From Nitrospina sp. (GTDB lineage Bacteria; Nitrospinota; Nitrospinia; Nitrospinales; VA-1), in the NCBI GenBank assembly GCA_018664975.1, contig JABIXH010000029.1, positions 1 through 34,872 on the forward strand: a DNA stretch of 34,872 bases, in the 5' to 3' direction. Position 1 is the first letter of the stretch; every line of letters begins with the position of its first letter. A program made the translations under genes and the position numbers. Positions 3 to 28,194 of the stretch are shown here, piece by piece. The notes under the pieces are model-generated. The model made no database searches, was not told where the DNA came from, and saw only the letters and a program-made list of their open reading frames with translations.

Positions 3-989
3 ATTGGAGAAACGCACGACAACCTGGAAGCCCACAAGGTGCAGTTGCAAGTCCTCCAGCATCTATCAGAAAAATATCAGGTGGCGATTGGGCTGGAAAT
101 GTTTCGCCGCTCGAGTCAGGAAAGCTTGGATCTATGGAATCAGGGTAAGCTTCCAATCCGGGAATTTAAAAACCTCTTCCACGCAAATTGGGGTGGGGGT
201 TTTGGCCTCTATCAACCTATTTTTGAATTTGCCAAATCTCGCAGTCTACCTTTAATCGGACTCAAATCCGCCCGTGAGGTTGAAAACCATTTCCGTTCAG
301 GAGACCCAGCTCCCGGCAATACACTTTATCCAGAAATCGATGACACAGATCCCTATCACCGGGCTTTCTCTCTTTCTGCATTCGGGGGCCACCGTGGCAC
401 CGCCAAGGCACTGGAAAAACCTTATCGGATGTTATTGTTGTGGGAAGAAACCATGGCCCAAACTGTGGCGGAGTTTTTACGCGATCCCAAAAATAAAGAT
501 AAAAAACTGGTGGTACTTGTAGGTGGATTTCATGTTCAATATGGATTCGGCATCCCAAAACGTGCCTACCGAAGAATTCCGCACAAATATTCCATCATTC
601 AACCGAGTATCACTGAAATTCCCGATAACCTGAAGGATCGGGAAATGACGGTAGAAAAAGTTTCCATCCCTCTTTACTCTTCAGATTTTGCCTGGAAAGT
701 GGAATACAAAGTTCCCGCTAAAAATAAAGTTAAGCTGGGAGTTCGGCTTGCTCAGAAAAAGGAGGGTGGTGTGCTCATTAAATCTGTTGCAGAGAATTCC
801 AACGCCCAAAGGGCCGGCATAAAAACGGGGGACCTTCTACTCAGCATGGATGGCAAAACTCTAACCGGGGTCGAGGATATTTTGGAACAACTACAAACCA
901 AAAATTTCAACGACAGGTCTATATTCCACCTTCAACGTGGAAATCAAATGCTCACGGTTGAAATGGTATATAAAAAATCAAAACTTTAA
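3..989 (+). CDS. ChaN-family (DUF399) haem-binding-like protein with C-terminal PDZ domain, 5'-truncated by window edge
   Basis: The frame is open from base 3 and reads IGETHDNLEAHKVQLQVLQHLSEKYQVAIGLEMF, the ChaN N-terminal motif, upstream of the ORF-track GTG start at 39. The C-terminus KLGVRLAQ...GVLIKSVAENSNAQRAGIKTGDLLLSMDGKTLTGVEDI is a PDZ domain. Confidence 0.85.
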   Translation: MGETHDNLEAHKVQLQVLQHLSEKYQVAIGLEMFRRSSQESLDLWNQGKLPIREFKNLFHANWGGGFGLYQPIFEFAKSRSLPLIGLKSAREVENHFRSGDPAPGNTLYPEIDDTDPYHRAFSLSAFGGHRGTAKALEKPYRMLLLWEETMAQTVAEFLRDPKNKDKKLVVLVGGFHVQYGFGIPKRAYRRIPHKYSIIQPSITEIPDNLKDREMTVEKVSIPLYSSDFAWKVEYKVPAKNKVKLGVRLAQKKEGGVLIKSVAENSNAQRAGIKTGDLLLSMDGKTLTGVEDILEQLQTKNFNDRSIFHLQRGNQMLTVEMVYKKSKL

Positions 990-9879: not shown

Positions 9880-10458
9880 ATGAAGCCTCCTAAACTCATT
9901 TTAATTATTTTGTTTCTGATGGTAGAAGCATTCTGGTCATCTCGTTTGGACCTTGCCTATGCCATCGAAAATAAAAGCCGAGTTATTTCCCCTTACTGGC
10001 AATCCGATTCCGGAAGCTACACATTCATAGCTGTTTCCCATTCTTCTTTATCGACAATTGCTACACAAATCGGTTTGGTTGTTAATGTCATTCAAAGCGA
10101 TTTAACAGCTTTCGGCACCGCAGTCACTTTTACTATTTCTGGTGGAAGCACTGAACGAATTTTTATTGTGCGGACAAACTCAACGATCAATTCTACAAGC
10201 ATCTCTTCCGCACAATTTGTTGTAGGGACCACTAATTTTAAGCACGGACATATTCTGATTGAACCTGTTGCAACAGATCCTTCTGCAGCGGTCGGCATCA
10301 ATAATGGACGGAGGGATGTGACCATGCTCAATTTTTGGGGGGCGGTGATTGTTGAAACCAATACAACAGGGTTTGCCATGGAGTTTATCGGAGATATGCA
10401 TGATAGTGCCGCCACACCCAGCATGGACGATTCTGCCCCAGTGAGTGGAGTCAATTAA
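9880..10458 (+). CDS. Secreted protein of the 'SPYWQ/FWG/MEFIGD' paralogous family (gene 1 of 3)
   Basis: 192 aa with N-terminal signal-like hydrophobic segment. The mature part aligns end to end with the C-terminus of the 11398-13431 protein. Confidence 0.8.
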   Translation: MKPPKLILIILFLMVEAFWSSRLDLAYAIENKSRVISPYWQSDSGSYTFIAVSHSSLSTIATQIGLVVNVIQSDLTAFGTAVTFTISGGSTERIFIVRTNSTINSTSISSAQFVVGTTNFKHGHILIEPVATDPSAAVGINNGRRDVTMLNFWGAVIVETNTTGFAMEFIGDMHDSAATPSMDDSAPVSGVN

Positions 10459-10470
10459 ATTTATTTTCAT

Positions 10471-11169
10471 ATGAATGAAATGAAAAATATTAGAAAAATT
10501 TTAAATTACAGGGTTTCAAATAAAGCTTGGGTTTTACCTGTGGGAATAGTGCTCACCTGGATTTTTATGCCTTATTTATTGTTTGCTCAGGTTGTGATCG
10601 TGCCTTCCACAGAAGATAAAGCAAGAATTGTATTGTCCCCATATGCTCAGTCTGTTCCCAATGACAGCTATACTTTTATGTCAATCAATCACCCCTCTCT
10701 CGATACAGCTTTAACCCAGGTGGGTGTCGCTCTGGAAGTTCGAGGCATGACCACGGTACCTGATAACGTAGCAGGTCGAGCGGCTATATTCACAGTGGAC
10801 GCTGGAGAAACCCATAGAGTTTTTATTGTCAATGTTTCGAACTCAACCATCAATTCTTCCAACGCATCCTTTACCGACGCACGTACCCATCTGATCCTGA
10901 CGCAAGATTCAGCCCAGTTTGGAAATATTAGAGCCGTTGCTGTCAACGAAGTTCCTCTCACCCCCACCACCGTTGGCACCACCCAGAAATATAATAATCT
11001 CGGTCAATTGAGTTTCTGGGGAGTAGTATTTGTTGAATCCAGTGGAACTGGTTTTTCCATGGAGTTCATTGGGGATGCTCACGATTCTACCATAGGGCGA
11101 AATTTCGGAGATAGCCAGCTTGATGGAGTTTCTGGAAGCTCAAGCGGAGTTGCCCGGGGAATCAATTAA
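10471..11169 (+). CDS. Secreted protein of the same paralogous family, divergent (gene 2 of 3)
   Basis: 232 aa with signal-like segment. RIVLSPYAQSVPNDSYTFMSINHPSLDTALTQVGVALEV...LSFWGVVFVESSGTGFSMEFIGDAHDS. Confidence 0.8.
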   Translation: MNEMKNIRKILNYRVSNKAWVLPVGIVLTWIFMPYLLFAQVVIVPSTEDKARIVLSPYAQSVPNDSYTFMSINHPSLDTALTQVGVALEVRGMTTVPDNVAGRAAIFTVDAGETHRVFIVNVSNSTINSSNASFTDARTHLILTQDSAQFGNIRAVAVNEVPLTPTTVGTTQKYNNLGQLSFWGVVFVESSGTGFSMEFIGDAHDSTIGRNFGDSQLDGVSGSSSGVARGIN

Positions 11170-11397
11170 ACTCCCATTCTTTCTTTCCACTCACTTACAG
11201 GGAAATTTGTAAATAAATAAGCAAACCTGCCAACTGGCTAGGCTCTTTTTAAGCCACTCCGTACCCTTAAAGCCTTAAAGTTCATAGTTTAGGATAACAA
11301 GCATTTTTCCGATAAGGATAATTTCAGCCTTGCCAAAAATTGGCCACGAGCTAAATTTGAATTCATTGACCCAAACCACTTTGAACCTATAGGTTTC

Positions 11398-13431
11398 ATG
11401 CCTGCTCTAACTTATTCCCTGTTGGCCATCATTCGCACCCAACATGTATTTAAACCGCTACATTTTACGTCCCCCTTCCAAAGGCTAATTCTATTACCAC
11501 TTTTAATGACCATCAGCTTTATAGGAATATCCCATGCCCTTGAGGCAGATTCTTCCGAGAACCTTCCTCCTTATTTATTTATGGCGGCGGAAAATATCGA
11601 TGGTATCCAAGCTCGACAAAGCCAGACTATTGTTCGTTCCCGTTTTGTAAATGTAGACTTCAGCCTTTTGCCTGATCCCGAAGAAAATTTTGATGCTGAA
11701 CTTGGTGCAGAAATTAAATTGATCTTGAACTTTTTTCCTGAAATTGAGTTTACAGCCCTAATTCATAAAATAGAAAAGAACCGATCAGGAAGTTACTCCT
11801 GGTTTGGAAAATTGGAAGACATCCCAATGAGTCAAGTGGTTTTGGTCGTGCATAAAAACAAGGTAATTGGAAACGTGTCGAAACCAAACCTGACCTACCA
11901 GGTGCGCCACACCAAAGATGGAATTCATACGGTCTATGAGATTAATCCTTCCAATTTCCCTCCCGATGGTGAACCCGTTACCCCTAAAATACCTTCCTCA
12001 ATCCCTTCCAATAAAGAGACAAAAGATACGGATGATGCCACTAGACTTTCTCCTTCAAACGAGGATACAAATTCAAATCAGGACCTTTTTCCAGAATCAG
12101 GAATAGGATATGGCGTCATGGGAGATGCACCGTTGTCAGGGGTTACAGCTTCACCTGATACTTTGGAGAATTCAGGGAGTTCCAATATCTCAAACCCTGA
12201 GACACAGGCTGATGATGGAACCGTAATCGATGTGTTGGTCGTTTACACTGCAGAAGCCCGCGCCGTGGAAGGTGGTACCAGTTCCATAGAAAGCTTAATA
12301 GACTTGTCCATCTCGGTAACCAATTCTATCTATTCAAACAGTGGTGTAGACCATGTTCTCCGCTTAGTAGGTCGGCAGGAGATCAACTTTTCAGAGGGTA
12401 GTTTTAGCTTTACTGGGTTTTTATCCTCAGCACAAAATGGTCTAATTCCGGGACTCCAAGCTTTAAGAGATTCTGTGGGAGCAGATGTGGTAGCAATTTT
12501 AGTGCAAGGAGATAATAGTTTATGCGGAATTGCCGGGCTAATGACAACCGTTTCGTCCGCTTTTGCGCCCTTTGCATATTCGGTAACTCAAACAAATTGC
12601 GCCGTGGGAAATCTGACAATGGCACATGAAATTGGACATAATATGGCCGCACGTCATGACCGGGCCAATGATAATATTAACGGGTTACCTTTTAGCTTCA
12701 ACCATGGGTATGTTGACAACGTAAATAGTTTTAGGACCGTCATGGGAACAGGCAACAATACCCGAATCTCTAACTTTTCCAATCCAAATGTACTTTTTGG
12801 TGGTGCTGTAACAGGAATTGCGGAGGGGAGTCTCCTTGCGGCAGACAATCGCCTGACCTTTCAAAATACGGCTTTCACGGTTTCCAATTTCAGACAGTCG
12901 ATCGACTCTCCGGCTAATCAGGCGTTCGCATCGATCGTTCCGTTTTCCAACGCCAATAGAGTGGCCTCCCCCTATTGGCAGTCAGATGGTACATCTTATT
13001 CATTTATTGCTGTCACCCACCCATCACTTTCAGGCATGGCTTCGCAGATCGGTGTCATCGTTCGAGCAATAAAAAATGATGGAACTTTATTTGGTACCGC
13101 CACCTCTTTTACGGTTAGCAATAGCGTTACAAGCAGAATATTCATAGTTAGGTCTTCGCACCCAACCATCAACAGCACATCTTTAACTGACGTTAAATTA
13201 GTTACCGGAAATTCCAGCTTTCAACATGGGTTTCTACATCTCAATCCTGTGGCGAGCAATCCTGAAATAAGCGCAAATGGATTTCGAGATATTACCCGAT
13301 TAAACTTTTGGGGAGCTGTAGTAGTTGAAAATAGTACTTCCGGTTTTGCGATGGAATTTATTGGCGATGCCCATGATAGTGCCGCCACTCCCAGCATGGA
13401 TGATTCTGCTCCGGTAACAGGTGTCAACTAA
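11398..13431 (+). CDS. Secreted zinc metalloprotease (M72/M12-like metzincin) with C-terminal 'SPYWQ/FWG/MEFIGD' domain (gene 3 of 3)
   Basis: 677 aa with signal segment, propeptide-like N-terminal region, DVLVVYTAEAR, HEIGHNMAARHD zinc site, Met-turn region FRTVMGTGNNTRISNFSNPNV. C-terminal ~157 aa homologous to gene 1. Confidence 0.85.
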   Translation: MPALTYSLLAIIRTQHVFKPLHFTSPFQRLILLPLLMTISFIGISHALEADSSENLPPYLFMAAENIDGIQARQSQTIVRSRFVNVDFSLLPDPEENFDAELGAEIKLILNFFPEIEFTALIHKIEKNRSGSYSWFGKLEDIPMSQVVLVVHKNKVIGNVSKPNLTYQVRHTKDGIHTVYEINPSNFPPDGEPVTPKIPSSIPSNKETKDTDDATRLSPSNEDTNSNQDLFPESGIGYGVMGDAPLSGVTASPDTLENSGSSNISNPETQADDGTVIDVLVVYTAEARAVEGGTSSIESLIDLSISVTNSIYSNSGVDHVLRLVGRQEINFSEGSFSFTGFLSSAQNGLIPGLQALRDSVGADVVAILVQGDNSLCGIAGLMTTVSSAFAPFAYSVTQTNCAVGNLTMAHEIGHNMAARHDRANDNINGLPFSFNHGYVDNVNSFRTVMGTGNNTRISNFSNPNVLFGGAVTGIAEGSLLAADNRLTFQNTAFTVSNFRQSIDSPANQAFASIVPFSNANRVASPYWQSDGTSYSFIAVTHPSLSGMASQIGVIVRAIKNDGTLFGTATSFTVSNSVTSRIFIVRSSHPTINSTSLTDVKLVTGNSSFQHGFLHLNPVASNPEISANGFRDITRLNFWGAVVVENSTSGFAMEFIGDAHDSAATPSMDDSAPVTGVN

Positions 13432-16889: not shown

Positions 16890-17396
16890 ATGATCCGGCA
16901 AGCTCTAAAAGTTTTTAAAGCTTTAAACTCTAACGAAAAGCCCTGGCAACTCAGCCTGGGCCTGGCGTTTGGTGGCATCATCGGCCTGATGCCGCTGTGG
17001 ACACCGCACAATATCTTCTTCCTTTTTCTCGCCTTCATCATCAATTTAAATTTTTCTCTTCTAATCCTTGGATTCCTCATTTTCTCTGGTATCGCTTACA
17101 TTCTTGATCCCCTTTTCCATCAAATTGGTTTGGCAGTGCTGACCTCAGGCGGAATGCAAGAATTTTGGAATGGATTTTTCAGCAATTCTCTTTTCCTGTT
17201 TGACCGTCTGAACAACACACTTGTCATGGGAAGCCTGATTTTCTCACTGGTTTCAGCGGTGCCCCTGTTTTTCCTGATCAACTTTCTTATACGAAAATAC
17301 CGTGAAAACTTGAAAGACCTACTTGAAAAAGTCCCCCTGTTAAAATCTCTCAAACTGGCTAAAGCATTCGATACGTTCACCGGTAGCGGATCATGA
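16890..17396 (+). CDS. Small integral membrane protein resembling TIGR03546/DUF2062-type family
   Basis: 168 aa. SLGLAFGGIIGLMPLWTPHNIFFLFLAFIINLNFSLLILGFLIFSGIAYILDPLFHQIG; overlaps the next ORF by 4 nt (ATGA). Confidence 0.75.
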   Translation: MIRQALKVFKALNSNEKPWQLSLGLAFGGIIGLMPLWTPHNIFFLFLAFIINLNFSLLILGFLIFSGIAYILDPLFHQIGLAVLTSGGMQEFWNGFFSNSLFLFDRLNNTLVMGSLIFSLVSAVPLFFLINFLIRKYRENLKDLLEKVPLLKSLKLAKAFDTFTGSGS

Positions 17397-19162
17397 AAAT
17401 TTTCCGCTGGCAAGGGGTAATTGCTTTCATTTTAATAGGGGGTCTCATTGGAATTTTTCTGCTCCTCTTTCTCGATGGAATGATTGAAAGGGCGGTTGAA
17501 GAAAAGGGGTCCGAAGCCGCAAAAACTCAAATTGATATTGGTTCCCTCTCCACCTCATTATTGGCGCAGGCCATAACCCTTGCCAATATTGAAGTTGCCA
17601 ATCCGGACAACAATCTGGAAAACCTGATCCAGTTTGAAAGCCTTGCCTTAGATTTGGATGGAATCCAAGTTGTTTCCCGGAAAATAATCATAGATGAACT
17701 TCAGGCCCACGGCATAAGGTTGAATCAGGCACGAACCCACCCTGCTCAATCGCCAGATGGCAAAAAATCAGAAACCGGGAATGATAAAGCATCTTCCGGC
17801 CAAAAGGCTCTTGCCCTGCCGGGACTGGACGGACTGAGTATGAAATCTCCTGAAGAGATCCTCAAGTCCGAAAAGCTGGAAACTCTGGAAGCTGGAAACC
17901 GGGTTAAAAAAACTATCGAAGATTTAAAATCCAAATGGAAAAATAAGTTTGAGACCGATCTCAATCCAAATGCCCTGGAAGAAACCAAACAGGAACTGGC
18001 TGAATTGCAGAAAAAAATACAAGGAGGGGGACTGGCAGATATTCCTAATGCCCTGAAGGAATTTAAAACTCTGCAAAATGATATTCAGGGTCAGGTGGAT
18101 CGCATAACATCCATGAAGTCCGAATTAGAAAAAGATGTGCAAATGGCAAAACAACAGGTGGCTGACTTAAAAAATCTCCCTCAAAAAGATTTTGAGCGAT
18201 TAAAAAATAAATATTCCATGAACCCAGAGGGTGGCAAAAATATTCTCGCCTCCATGCTGGAAGGTCCTTTAAAAGAAAAACTCGATAAAGCCTGGAAAGC
18301 CTACAAAATGATCAGCCCCTATCTGAACCGGGGCAAAAGTCCGGCAGAACAGGTATACGTTCGCGGCAGGGGAATAGATATCGCATTTGCTAAAACTTCT
18401 CCGGACTTTCTTCTCAAACATGGCGACTTGTCATTGGTCCTTTTAGATACTGAAGTAAAAGGAGAACTGAAAGGTTTATCGGACAATCAGCAAATTTACG
18501 GAAAGCCTGCCAGGATTAATTTCCAGTCGGATAAAAACGAAAAATTTGATTCGTTTGCGCTGGATGTCACGATGGATAAAACCGGTCCACAATCGAAAGA
18601 TACCCTTGCTTTGAACATTCAGGGACTTAACCTGCAAAACACTGGAAAGGCAGAATTGAAAGGCGGGTCTGCAAATATCACCGGGCAACTCACCATCGTG
18701 GACGAAAATAATTTAAACGGAAATTTTAAAGCTGTGCTGGACCGTGTCTCGCTATCAATCCCTAAACAGGAAGGCAACGAACTGGCCAACACCATCGCCC
18801 AATCACTATCTACGATTGATAGAATAAATATTTCTGTCGGAATCAGCGGAACCATAGAAAGTTATCAATTGGATATAAAGTCCAACCTTTCAGAGATCAT
18901 CTCCAATGCGGTCAAAAATGTTTTGGCTGAAAAAATGAAAGGATTCGAGAGTTCCCTCATGTCCGCCATCCAATCACAAACTGGGGAAGCCCTCTCTGGT
19001 GCCAATGGTTCACTTTCCGGTCTGCTGGGTCAAAATAAAATCTTAAGCGATAGCGGGTCCGCTTACGGTGGGTTGTTGGGTGAAGCAAAAGGCGAGGCAT
19101 CCAGCCTGGGCAAATCCAAAGGCGGCCTGTCCCTCCCCGGTGGATTCAAACTTCCCTTTTAA
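17393..19162 (+). CDS. TIGR03545-like AsmA-related envelope protein
   Basis: 589 aa. N-terminal TM, IDIGSLSTSLLAQAITLANIEVANPDNNLENLIQFESLALDLDG AsmA-like start, coiled-coil middle, glycine-rich tail, directly downstream of its usual partner. Confidence 0.75.
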   Translation: MKIFRWQGVIAFILIGGLIGIFLLLFLDGMIERAVEEKGSEAAKTQIDIGSLSTSLLAQAITLANIEVANPDNNLENLIQFESLALDLDGIQVVSRKIIIDELQAHGIRLNQARTHPAQSPDGKKSETGNDKASSGQKALALPGLDGLSMKSPEEILKSEKLETLEAGNRVKKTIEDLKSKWKNKFETDLNPNALEETKQELAELQKKIQGGGLADIPNALKEFKTLQNDIQGQVDRITSMKSELEKDVQMAKQQVADLKNLPQKDFERLKNKYSMNPEGGKNILASMLEGPLKEKLDKAWKAYKMISPYLNRGKSPAEQVYVRGRGIDIAFAKTSPDFLLKHGDLSLVLLDTEVKGELKGLSDNQQIYGKPARINFQSDKNEKFDSFALDVTMDKTGPQSKDTLALNIQGLNLQNTGKAELKGGSANITGQLTIVDENNLNGNFKAVLDRVSLSIPKQEGNELANTIAQSLSTIDRINISVGISGTIESYQLDIKSNLSEIISNAVKNVLAEKMKGFESSLMSAIQSQTGEALSGANGSLSGLLGQNKILSDSGSAYGGLLGEAKGEASSLGKSKGGLSLPGGFKLPF

Positions 19163-22847: not shown

Positions 22848-23720
22848 ATGAGCCTGCAACTTATAAAGAAAGGTAGATTGTTGAGGGACCCAAAACGAAT
22901 ATTGCAGAAACTTCTTGGATCAGAAGTGGAGCCTTTTGCAGAGACGGGCGAGCCTTTGGAACAAACGGTCGAAACCTTGCGCGACGTTGTCAAATGCCGG
23001 AAAATCCGTGAATATGTTCTGGAACATTTCGGATTCGACCTTGCCATTACCCCCACGGTTTTTCACCAACTGCTGGATATTCCGCAAATTAATTTTATTG
23101 AAACTACTAAAAGGGATCTCGAAGTAGAAACCGTTTCTTTAAAAGAAATCCGTGGACCTGATGACCCGGTCGCCATCAGTAATTTAAATTCCGTCCTGCG
23201 CGAACTCTATGCCAGCCTTTTTCAAATCAAACAGCGCATCAGTAACGATTACCCCAAGGCGGTTTTGATCAAAGAAATTCAATCGGAACATATTGACCGG
23301 GTGCAGGATCTCGCAAAATCCATCTCTGTATTGCATGGGAATCTGACGGGTTATCTGTTCACCAGTTGGAAAGCAGGAAAAATCGAAAAAGAGTTCCTTT
23401 CTCTGTTTCCGAATTCAACCAAGGCGCATCCCCTTAGGAGCACGTTTCCGCTCATAGAGCATGAATTGGATTTGTACCGGGAAGTGCTAACTATTCAGAA
23501 AAAATGGGCACCTTTGGGAATCGACTTGTTTGCCATACTCCATAAAGAGGATGCTCTCAATCTACTGCTTGAAAATATTCAGGAGTTAGGCAACCGGTTG
23601 TGGCAGGTCATTTATCAAAGTTCTGAGATACGACAATGTATGGAAATTGCAGGAATTCAATTCGGAGACACCTTACCCCTGTTCGACAACGATAGGGTCC
23701 CTTTAAATCCACTAGGCTAA
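22848..23720 (+). CDS. Hypothetical protein, mainly alpha-helical
   Basis: 290 aa long ORF with coding-like composition, no recognised domain. Confidence 0.7.
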   Translation: MSLQLIKKGRLLRDPKRILQKLLGSEVEPFAETGEPLEQTVETLRDVVKCRKIREYVLEHFGFDLAITPTVFHQLLDIPQINFIETTKRDLEVETVSLKEIRGPDDPVAISNLNSVLRELYASLFQIKQRISNDYPKAVLIKEIQSEHIDRVQDLAKSISVLHGNLTGYLFTSWKAGKIEKEFLSLFPNSTKAHPLRSTFPLIEHELDLYREVLTIQKKWAPLGIDLFAILHKEDALNLLLENIQELGNRLWQVIYQSSEIRQCMEIAGIQFGDTLPLFDNDRVPLNPLG

Positions 23721-25216: not shown

Positions 25217-26494
25217 TCAGTTCATTTCAGGAAGATTGTTCAGCATTCTCAAGGCTCCGGCTTTTTCGATCGGGGTGAGTTTCGGTGATTCTCCCATTTT
25301 TGTGATTTTACGGCGTTTCTCTTCAACAAATTTTTTAAAATCTTCCTCGTCTGGCACCACCAGTTTTATTTCACCCTCCTCTCCGATAAACCGTTGCTTT
25401 ATAAACCGGAAATATATTCCCAACCGGGTGGCCGAGTCCTTCAATCTTAAATGATAGGTCATCGTCATTAAGGCTTCCCGTTTACGGTCTATGCGATAAC
25501 CCAGCCGGGTGTTATCGAGTTTATTGAACTGGATGTCTAAAATGGAAAAAGCTTCATTCAGTGCATTGGAATCCAGTTTCAATGGAGGCAGGGGAAGAAT
25601 TTTCACTGCGGCGATGTCGAGCAATAGCGAAACAGCGCGGGTCTGCTCACCAAGATAAGCGGACTCCAAAGGATACTTGCGATTCAAACGCGATACCTCT
25701 TGCAAGGCCGGTTCCAGCTTTTCTATGGCACTGCTCACCCGATTAAGTGTGTCATCTTCAAAAGGCATTAAAAACCACTGCACCTCTCTGGGAACAAGCA
25801 GGTCCTCTCCCAGAACGGTGGATCTCTCTTTTACCTCGCGCGAAAAAAATCGGTCCAGAATATCGGCGAATTCCGGAATAAAGAAAGCCGTCACCGTGTC
25901 AGAAAAATACGGAAAGTTTAATAACAAAAACCGGGGATCGGACCGAATGTTCAAACCGTACGCTTCCAACTCATTGGCAACACCCAAAAATGGCTGGGTC
26001 AAATGCAGGGACTCATGCAAGTGCGTAGCGTTTCCATATACCCGGCTATCTACCAAAACAGCAGAGGGGAAAATTCTAATGGTGTCAAAAGTGGTGTGGG
26101 CAAACTGGCCGGGACGCAACCATTCATCGGCCCAGGATTGAATGATAAATTGCTTAAGCGGTGGAGGGGGGAGATCTTGATGTATAGAAGATAAGCGGAC
26201 CAGCGTTTTTTGCATCCGGTCAATAGACTGGTCCAGCAGTTGTTCCGCCTGGTGGCATTTGCCACAACCATAAGCTTCGAATCCGGGAATGGAAAAAGAG
26301 GTTTCTCCACCCTCCGCAAGGAGCTTCACTCTCCTCGATGGGCCTTGAGTGTGGTCAACGTCTTCCTGATATTTTTTAGGAGGGTGAAGTTGAATCAACC
26401 GGTTCAATTCACCTAGGCCTGCCGACTCCTCTGCTTGCACCGTAGTTGCCGCAAGAACAAGGCAACCGATTAATGCAAAAAACTCTTTCTTCAA
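25217..26494 (-). CDS. Secreted mono-haem c-type protein with HExxH metallopeptidase-like motif
   Basis: 425 aa with signal segment, CGKCH haem site (26252-26266), HESLH (26003-26017) followed by NELEAY. TTG start overlaps the upstream stop (TTGA). Confidence 0.75.
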   Translation of the reverse strand: MKKEFFALIGCLVLAATTVQAEESAGLGELNRLIQLHPPKKYQEDVDHTQGPSRRVKLLAEGGETSFSIPGFEAYGCGKCHQAEQLLDQSIDRMQKTLVRLSSIHQDLPPPPLKQFIIQSWADEWLRPGQFAHTTFDTIRIFPSAVLVDSRVYGNATHLHESLHLTQPFLGVANELEAYGLNIRSDPRFLLLNFPYFSDTVTAFFIPEFADILDRFFSREVKERSTVLGEDLLVPREVQWFLMPFEDDTLNRVSSAIEKLEPALQEVSRLNRKYPLESAYLGEQTRAVSLLLDIAAVKILPLPPLKLDSNALNEAFSILDIQFNKLDNTRLGYRIDRKREALMTMTYHLRLKDSATRLGIYFRFIKQRFIGEEGEIKLVVPDEEDFKKFVEEKRRKITKMGESPKLTPIEKAGALRMLNNLPEMN

Positions 26495-28194
26495 GGTTTC
26501 GGTTTCTTAATATTAAAACGTTGCCAGACGCTGATAACTTTGCGTCCGTTCCTGTCTTCCTTCACTCCATCCCAGACAGCAAACGCCATCAGGGCCGGGT
26601 CGATGCGCTGGGCAAAGTCCACATCCCATTTTCCGGTTTTTGGCATATCTCGGAGAAAAACCACTGTCCAGACCCCATCTTTCCATTCGCCAGAGCCGTC
26701 CACATTCTGATTCTCTTGCGGTTGCGGAGTGATGGTGCCAAAGCCTTCAGCATTCAGTTCTTCAACCGGATTTTCTCCGGTCGCATTTAATCGAGATACC
26801 GGATTCGACATGAGGCCACCATAAATCAGTGCGTCCATATCCACCCCACCGCCGGCATATTCCAAATCATCTTCAGCTTCGAGAGCTTCTTCCAAGCCCG
26901 CTTTCCAATGCCATATATTAACGGGTTTATTGCGGTTACCCATCCCGAAAAAAGGTTCATTATGGCCATGGGTATGGAGCGTTACCGCCCCCAACGCAAA
27001 TTGCACAGCCGCTCCATCACGGAATATGTCGGAATGCAGTTCAGAAAATGCGTCATGAGTCGGATCATTCCATTGCAAGCGTATTGCCAATTGTTCGCCA
27101 TTATTAACCGAAGCCACATTGATGAATTCTACCGCTTCCCGTCTAGCAGATAATGGACGTAGTACCAGATTGGTGGTGGCCACTCCCTCCCACACCGGAC
27201 TATAGGGATCGGTGCTCAGCTCCACTCCAACAGGAAGGGAAAAAACATCCGTTTCAAATTCTGCCTCCTTAAACTCCTTAACTAACTTGGAACGAATATA
27301 ATGCACCAGTGCCCAACGATCCTTTTCCGGGATATGGATATAGGAGCCCATAGGCGTTCCATCCAGCCCCGAAGTAATGGTTCTAAAAAGGTCTTCCGGT
27401 TTGTGTCCACTTTTGAAATAATGCGGATTGGTGATGTCATGCACAAACACAGCATGTTTCCAGGCATCCATGAGCGATTCAGCCAACTCACCATCTCCCT
27501 TTAACGACTCCCCATGGCATCGGAAACATTTTAATTCTTTAAAAAGTTCCTGCCCTCGAGCCACCAGAGCGGGGGTAGATTCGAGCGCCGTGGCGATCTC
27601 AATTTTTTCACCCTGCGGTTCGTTTTTGAATCGAGGAGAAAAATTTTTAATGTGATTGATCAAAGCCCAGGTATCTTCAGGACTCAATGCGTCTTTCCAG
27701 GCTGGCATAGAGGTGCCGGGAATTCCCTCAATAATGGTCCGGTATAAATCTTCATCGCGGGGGAGCGTGCCGGTAGGAGTGGAGCGAAACTTGAAGATGC
27801 CTTCCCGGAAATCCCTCGGCCAGGGGTATAAATATTCCACGGCTTTTCCGCCACCATTACCATCCTCCCCATGGCAGAACACACACATGTGCATAAAAAT
27901 ATTGCGGCCTCGGGCCAGAAGGCTTTTGGAGTCCATATCTTTAGGCTTGGAAAGATCTGCCTGATCGTGAGACCCTCGGGCGCGGAAGATTCCGTCTTCG
28001 TGTTGCATCGCACCATGATCCCCATGCTCCATGGGCGCCCGGTATTCCTGTCCGGAAGTCGCCCCGGAATGATCCATCGCTCCGTGGTCCATCGCTCCGT
28101 GGTCCATTTTATGCTCCTGCGCCATCACAGACCCCGAGCACAAACCTACCAATACCAGTGAAACAATCTTTGAATTAATAATTTTTAGTCCCAT
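26491..28194 (-). CDS. Di-haem cytochrome c fused to ethylbenzene dehydrogenase-type haem-binding (EB_dh) domain
   Basis: 567 aa. CVFCH (27871-27885) and CFRCH motifs; C-terminal FRDGAAVQFALG, PFFGMGNRNKPVNIWHWKAG, VWTVVFLRDM, AFAVWDGVKEDRNGRKVISVWQRF typical of type II DMSO-reductase gamma/EB_dh domains. Confidence 0.85.
   Translation of the reverse strand: MGLKIINSKIVSLVLVGLCSGSVMAQEHKMDHGAMDHGAMDHSGATSGQEYRAPMEHGDHGAMQHEDGIFRARGSHDQADLSKPKDMDSKSLLARGRNIFMHMCVFCHGEDGNGGGKAVEYLYPWPRDFREGIFKFRSTPTGTLPRDEDLYRTIIEGIPGTSMPAWKDALSPEDTWALINHIKNFSPRFKNEPQGEKIEIATALESTPALVARGQELFKELKCFRCHGESLKGDGELAESLMDAWKHAVFVHDITNPHYFKSGHKPEDLFRTITSGLDGTPMGSYIHIPEKDRWALVHYIRSKLVKEFKEAEFETDVFSLPVGVELSTDPYSPVWEGVATTNLVLRPLSARREAVEFINVASVNNGEQLAIRLQWNDPTHDAFSELHSDIFRDGAAVQFALGAVTLHTHGHNEPFFGMGNRNKPVNIWHWKAGLEEALEAEDDLEYAGGGVDMDALIYGGLMSNPVSRLNATGENPVEELNAEGFGTITPQPQENQNVDGSGEWKDGVWTVVFLRDMPKTGKWDVDFAQRIDPALMAFAVWDGVKEDRNGRKVISVWQRFNIKKPKP

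Follow-up and report, generated by a model that had tools for sequence, protein, structure and literature searches.

A C-terminal module of exported Nitrospinota proteins with a conserved, co-varying tail and a possible role in surface targeting or docking

The window, as we call the whole stretch of 34,872 nucleotides that was analysed, comes from a relative of the marine nitrite oxidisers, the Nitrospinota bin G000, which is 78% complete and comprises 2.92 Mb in 321 contigs. It contains three consecutive genes, named A, B and gene 3, whose products all carry an all-beta module of about 150 residues at the C-terminus (Table 1). The three reading frames and their alignable domains lie where the original prediction had placed them, and its description of the proteins held in each respect: signal-like N-termini, close likeness of the first and third modules, an insertion in the second, and fusion of the third to a metalloprotease. 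Proteins A and B have Sec-like signal peptides (ending in DLAYA and LLFAQ, respectively), followed by the module and a short tail and nothing more. The product of gene 3 has a signal-like start, followed by an M12B Reprolysin_4 domain (50.9 bits against a cut-off of 22, E = 2e-13; Reprolysin_3 and Reprolysin_5 also score over their cut-offs in Pfam) and then the module; its HEIGHNMAARH sequence fits the HExxHxxxxxH zinc-binding pattern. In alignments, the modules of A and the metzincin are 58–61% identical, and B, which contains the insertions, is 39% identical to A.

Table 1. Coordinates of the module genes and their parts within the window.
Feature	Position	Strand	Evidence
Gene A: signal peptide, A-type module and tail; 192 aa; ends ...SGVN	9880..10458	+	ORF; alignments; A clade of module tree
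A-type module and tail of gene A: predicted nine-strand beta-sandwich	9961..10455	+	AlphaFold2 pLDDT 91.2, pTM 0.84
Gene A C-terminal tail, MHDSAATPSMDDSAPVSGVN	10396..10455	+	Tail comparison; last ~20 residues of low pLDDT
Gene B: signal peptide, B-type module and tail; 232 aa; ends ...ARGIN	10471..11169	+	ORF; B clade, support 100/98
B-type module with insertions, and tail	10606..11166	+	Alignment; own-genome profile search
Gene 3: exported M12B-like metzincin, 677 aa, A-type module at end	11398..13431	+	ORF; Pfam Reprolysin_4, 2e-13
Reprolysin-like catalytic domain of gene 3, residues 276-466, with HEIGHNMAARH	12223..12795	+	Pfam; zinc motif
A-type module and tail of gene 3	12937..13428	+	Own-genome search, E 2.8e-80; alignment
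Metzincin (gene 3) C-terminal tail, AHDSAATPSMDDSAPVTGVN; 18/20 residues same as gene A tail	13369..13428	+	Tail comparison

A profile built from the copies in this genome matched every copy at E <= 2.1e-74, the searched copies being those used for building; a single-sequence search with gene A, which is independent of the profile, found gene 3 at 2.3e-59 and gene B at 4.2e-26. The genome has two further copies of the module, on contigs C6 and C123, both with a TPR-repeat gene nearby. Elsewhere in the window, a 567-residue protein (26491-28194, minus strand) unites cytochrome c domains with an ethylbenzene dehydrogenase-type haem domain, an architecture of the type reported for nitrite oxidoreductase gamma-like subunits, and the gene at 39-989 (plus strand) encodes a PDZ domain fused to a ChaN/Tiki-type haem-binding domain. 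Three further ORFs (17393-19162, 22848-23720 and 25217-26494; 589, 290 and 425 aa) have no Pfam match at E <= 1e-6.

In the original prediction no named, characterised family was recognised for the module, and indeed no Pfam or NCBIfam model recognises it, either in the three proteins of the window or in 115 aligned members. From the alignment of these 115 sequences, AlphaFold2 predicted the nine-strand beta-sandwich with confidence, the last ~20 residues being of low confidence. No solved structure matches this fold at E <= 0.001 in a PDB fold search, in which the best match was TM1070 (1nc7) of the ASRT/ASRAH superfamily (E 0.012, TM-score 0.63 on the target), and the best PDB sequence match reached an E-value of only 0.5. 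The single viral fold match below E 0.001, a lactobacillus phage capsid protein, had a TM-score of 0.42 and was judged not meaningful. Near-invariant residues include SPYxQ, Y20, F22, H27, F57-T58, F68, G96, W126-G127 and the block GFAMEFxGDxxDS. In the module tree, A and B types are separated with a support of 100/98, with five rows that had been labelled A by pattern grouping with B.

Among the genomes searched, only those of Nitrospinota had the module. When 85,462 species genomes were scanned by pattern, almost all matches lay on Nitrospinota contigs; a few matches carry other bin names, and those that were placed in the tree fall within Nitrospinota groups, which suggests misbinning. In a profile search of 385 genomes chosen as relatives, 40 of the 77 Nitrospinota genomes and none of the 308 others had the module, a distribution that holds at the thresholds used, below which remoter relatives may lie. 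Phage, viral and plasmid sequences yielded no relatives of the module, and an origin from these sources was rejected on this ground. The number of copies can be large: the genome of an order-level relative (G004) has 42 matches, many of them on ORFs of 500-5370 codons.

Within proteins, the module always stands at the C-terminus. In about 120 ORFs it ends 5-48 residues before the stop codon, and it is never internal. The domain-only secreted proteins A and B occur in tandem, A followed by B, in 33 loci, and it is this pair, not the three-gene set proposed in the original prediction, that forms the conserved core; a metzincin adjoins it in only seven. In these seven loci the metzincin stands in three different arrangements (five downstream on the same strand, one upstream at L019 and one convergent at L033), and in other genomes it lies elsewhere. 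Members of genus g6 and genome G022 have one stand-alone module protein and no A-B pair in the regions read. Metzincins that end in the module are present in families f1, f2 and f4; other cargo comprises subtilases, large proteins with FG-GAP, Calx-beta, SBBP, NHL, HYR or DUF5649 domains, and beta-propeller giants. Cargo modules mostly cluster with the A type, the exceptions being L077, L078 and a carrier in G034 whose tail is B-like. One C-terminal domain shared by many unrelated exported proteins, the property by which C-terminal surface-sorting domains are grouped as a functional kind, is found here. One module carrier, at locus L050 (10555-12387), can be aligned with the metzincin core at E 1.8e-46 and has no HExxHxxxxxH pattern; by its sequence it is perhaps a catalytically dead metzincin copy.

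Beyond the last strand, the proteins continue in a polar tail of variable length, the extreme end of which is conserved. Among 117 distinct complete proteins, 91 end in G-[VILT]-N and 17 in a GPxAP-like motif (108/117 conserved), and asparagine occupies the last position in 79% of tails, compared with 5.8% in the tail interior. B tails end in ARGIN or GRGIN. Judged by sequence identity, the tails of A and the metzincin match within a genome beyond what their folded parts do: mean tail identity is 0.73 within and 0.42 between genomes, whereas the corresponding values for the core are 0.54 and 0.49. None of 20,000 permutations reached the observed tail value, and permutation within lineages gave p = 0.006; within lineages, a lesser excess is seen in the core as well (p = 0.009), and shared descent therefore contributes. 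Tail and core may also part within one genome, as in the genome of L018, where a second metzincin module has 67% core identity to the first but only 35% tail identity, and in G047 an unlinked stand-alone protein and the metzincin both end in TSQP. In G045, the nine tail residues are identical but no more than three of the codons, a pattern that speaks for selection acting on the protein. Gene conversion can also yield matching tails: at L033, the 3' ends of gene A and the convergent metzincin gene share an identical tract of 90 nucleotides (10008-10097 and 10796-10885), which points to recombination or gene conversion as its likely source. The conserved extreme C-terminus and the within-genome matching of tails are the new element here; together with the always C-terminal position, the restriction to Nitrospinota and a type IV pilus neighbourhood at an older pair locus, they go beyond the original prediction.

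Our best explanation, to which we give a probability of about one half, is that the module may be a Nitrospinota-specific C-terminal surface-targeting or docking module whose tail would be part of the address. It builds on the observed Sec-like signals, C-terminal position, Nitrospinota restriction, A/B duality, diversity of cargo, and conservation and co-variation of the tail, and such a module would be expected to recur at the end of many unrelated exported proteins and to have a conserved free C-terminus. The surface location, docking, partner and export route that we infer would fit together as follows. Sec would take the cargo, here the metzincin and elsewhere subtilases or giant repeat proteins, to the periplasm, where the C-terminal beta-sandwich and the free tail could be recognised by a putative envelope partner that would export the cargo or hold it at the cell surface. 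The domain-only A and B proteins, present in nearly every case, would be the constant core, probably a platform alongside which A-type cargo is assembled. A shared anchor or shared assembly domain, already suggested in the original prediction, is a good reading in this respect. Where a cell has paralogous sets, their differing tails (SGVN as against GPAAP) seem to keep them separate. A bolder version, tentative and in our view somewhat unlikely, is that a co-evolving receptor would read the free tail as an address, such that paralogous A/B/protease sets with SGVN and GPAAP dialects in the same cell would form separate surface-delivery channels of an undescribed secretion or assembly route. Against the explanation stand the AlphaFold prediction of a read-through A-B fusion (13 rows, pTM 0.49), which gave B the same strand order and no support for an interface, the capacity of gene conversion to match tails, and the fact that not every genome with the module has an A-B pair.

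The gene neighbourhood bears on a different role, in which A and B would serve type IV pili as accessory subunits, and enzymes as well as repeat adhesins would be docked by the module to the pilus or its secretin. At window-type loci, genes for an aldo/keto reductase and a NifU-like protein, then A and then B, follow one another in a conserved order, and no pilus genes lie near the window pair. The second pair locus, in contrast, is flanked by PilW-like TPR lipoproteins, one after A-B and one on the other side beside RodZ, one or two PilT, regulators, PilC (which resembles GspF too) and a PilS-like kinase. The same gene order occurs in G004 (f2), in G010 (f4) and in genus g6 of f1, there with a single stand-alone gene, and this recurrence in f1, f2 and f4 therefore marks the pilus-side order as old. 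This neighbourhood favours pilus display, but the pilus-side genes are all divergent from A-B and proximity alone may be inherited; moreover, some module-positive genomes have no PilQ over the cut-off, and the signals of A and B are ordinary Sec signals rather than pilin-type leaders. Taken together, we consider a pilus role improbable. Loci L115, L117, L120, L114 and L024 share a deeply conserved series of PilC, regulators, PilT, RodZ and PilW-like TPR lipoprotein, followed by one or more divergent module genes and a second TPR lipoprotein. Of the near-complete genomes, 17 of the 19 with the module and 5 of the 12 without it have a GspD over the cut-off, an association that is suggestive only; type II secretion as the exporter is not claimed, because G005-G008 and G012 carry the module without GspD over the cut-off.

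Equally doubtful in our estimate is that the module is lectin-like and holds exoproteins on a surface or matrix polysaccharide, as the C-terminal domains of the metzincin Mep72 may do, with A and B as free lectins. The metzincin resembles Mep72, whose C-terminal domains bind carbohydrate, and the weak fold matches include GH50 agarases, a Bacteroides CBM, Fbs1 and the ASRT/ASRAH protein TM1070, which are proposed sugar binders. All of these PDB matches fall short of E 0.001, however, and a conserved, co-varying disordered C-terminus would be unexpected of a lectin. The protease itself offers the remaining alternatives. That A and B regulate the adjacent metzincin, as its inhibitors, activators or decoys, would accord with its presence beside the pair in seven loci, with the matched tails of A and metzincin and with the existence of a partner protein, BamI, for Mep72; we nevertheless regard it as very improbable, given that most A-B pairs have no adjacent metzincin and many module-ended proteins are not metzincins. 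The substrate/protease pairing raised in the original prediction is unlikely as well, because A-B mostly lacks a nearby protease and the module also ends subtilases and non-enzymatic giant proteins.

The main marine nitrite oxidisers belong to the Nitrospinota, and in the literature searched we found nothing on how members of this phylum place proteins on their surface. The surface or exoprotein set that the module marks, with 42 matches in one genome, is named in neither Pfam nor NCBIfam, and the profile of the module can be used to annotate it. In A, B and the metzincin we seem to meet an address label of a new kind, which would stand at the C-terminus and serve surface placement, and the hypothesis of an address tag is directly testable because the tail co-varies within its set.

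Among known systems, the type IX secretion system (T9SS) of Bacteroidota places a C-terminal beta-sandwich on many unrelated Sec-exported proteins of one genome, and the module is alike in this arrangement. No T9SS tail model, which we take to be contained in the NCBIfam release used, was among the matches of the 115 members at E <= 0.1, and SprA was found in 0 of 77 Nitrospinota genomes by a search that also gave no positive-control match; T9SS was rejected on the tail-model result and, tentatively, on the SprA result. The MYXO-CTERM, GlyGly-CTERM and PEP-CTERM tags resemble the module as phylum- or lineage-specific C-terminal labels on dozens of surface proteins, and type II secretion has been predicted for MYXO-CTERM proteins (PMC11980579). 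These tags consist of a short motif, a transmembrane helix and a basic end, whereas the module is a folded domain with a polar tail; read directly, the tails contain no hydrophobic stretch and show no transmembrane helix with a basic end. The nearest known analogue of gene 3 is Mep72 of Pseudomonas aeruginosa, a metzincin that depends on Sec, is secreted by the type II route and carries carbohydrate-binding domains at its end (PMC4334185), both being Sec-exported metzincins with non-catalytic domains at the C-terminus. Gene 3 matches the Mep72 model NF052434 (NCBIfam) in the catalytic part only (E 1.6e-28), and its 99.6 bits against a cut-off of 645 do not make it a Mep72 equivalog; the Mep72 C-terminal domains are CBM-like, whereas no CBM model in Pfam matched gene 3. 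ASRT/ASRAH proteins share the beta-sandwich with the module in a weak fold resemblance (best E 0.012), and the ASRT family profile was not among the Pfam matches of the 115 members at E <= 0.1. While the module thus fits none of the sequence definitions tested, the best reading by analogy is that it may work like the C-terminal domains of T9SS or the MYXO-CTERM tags.
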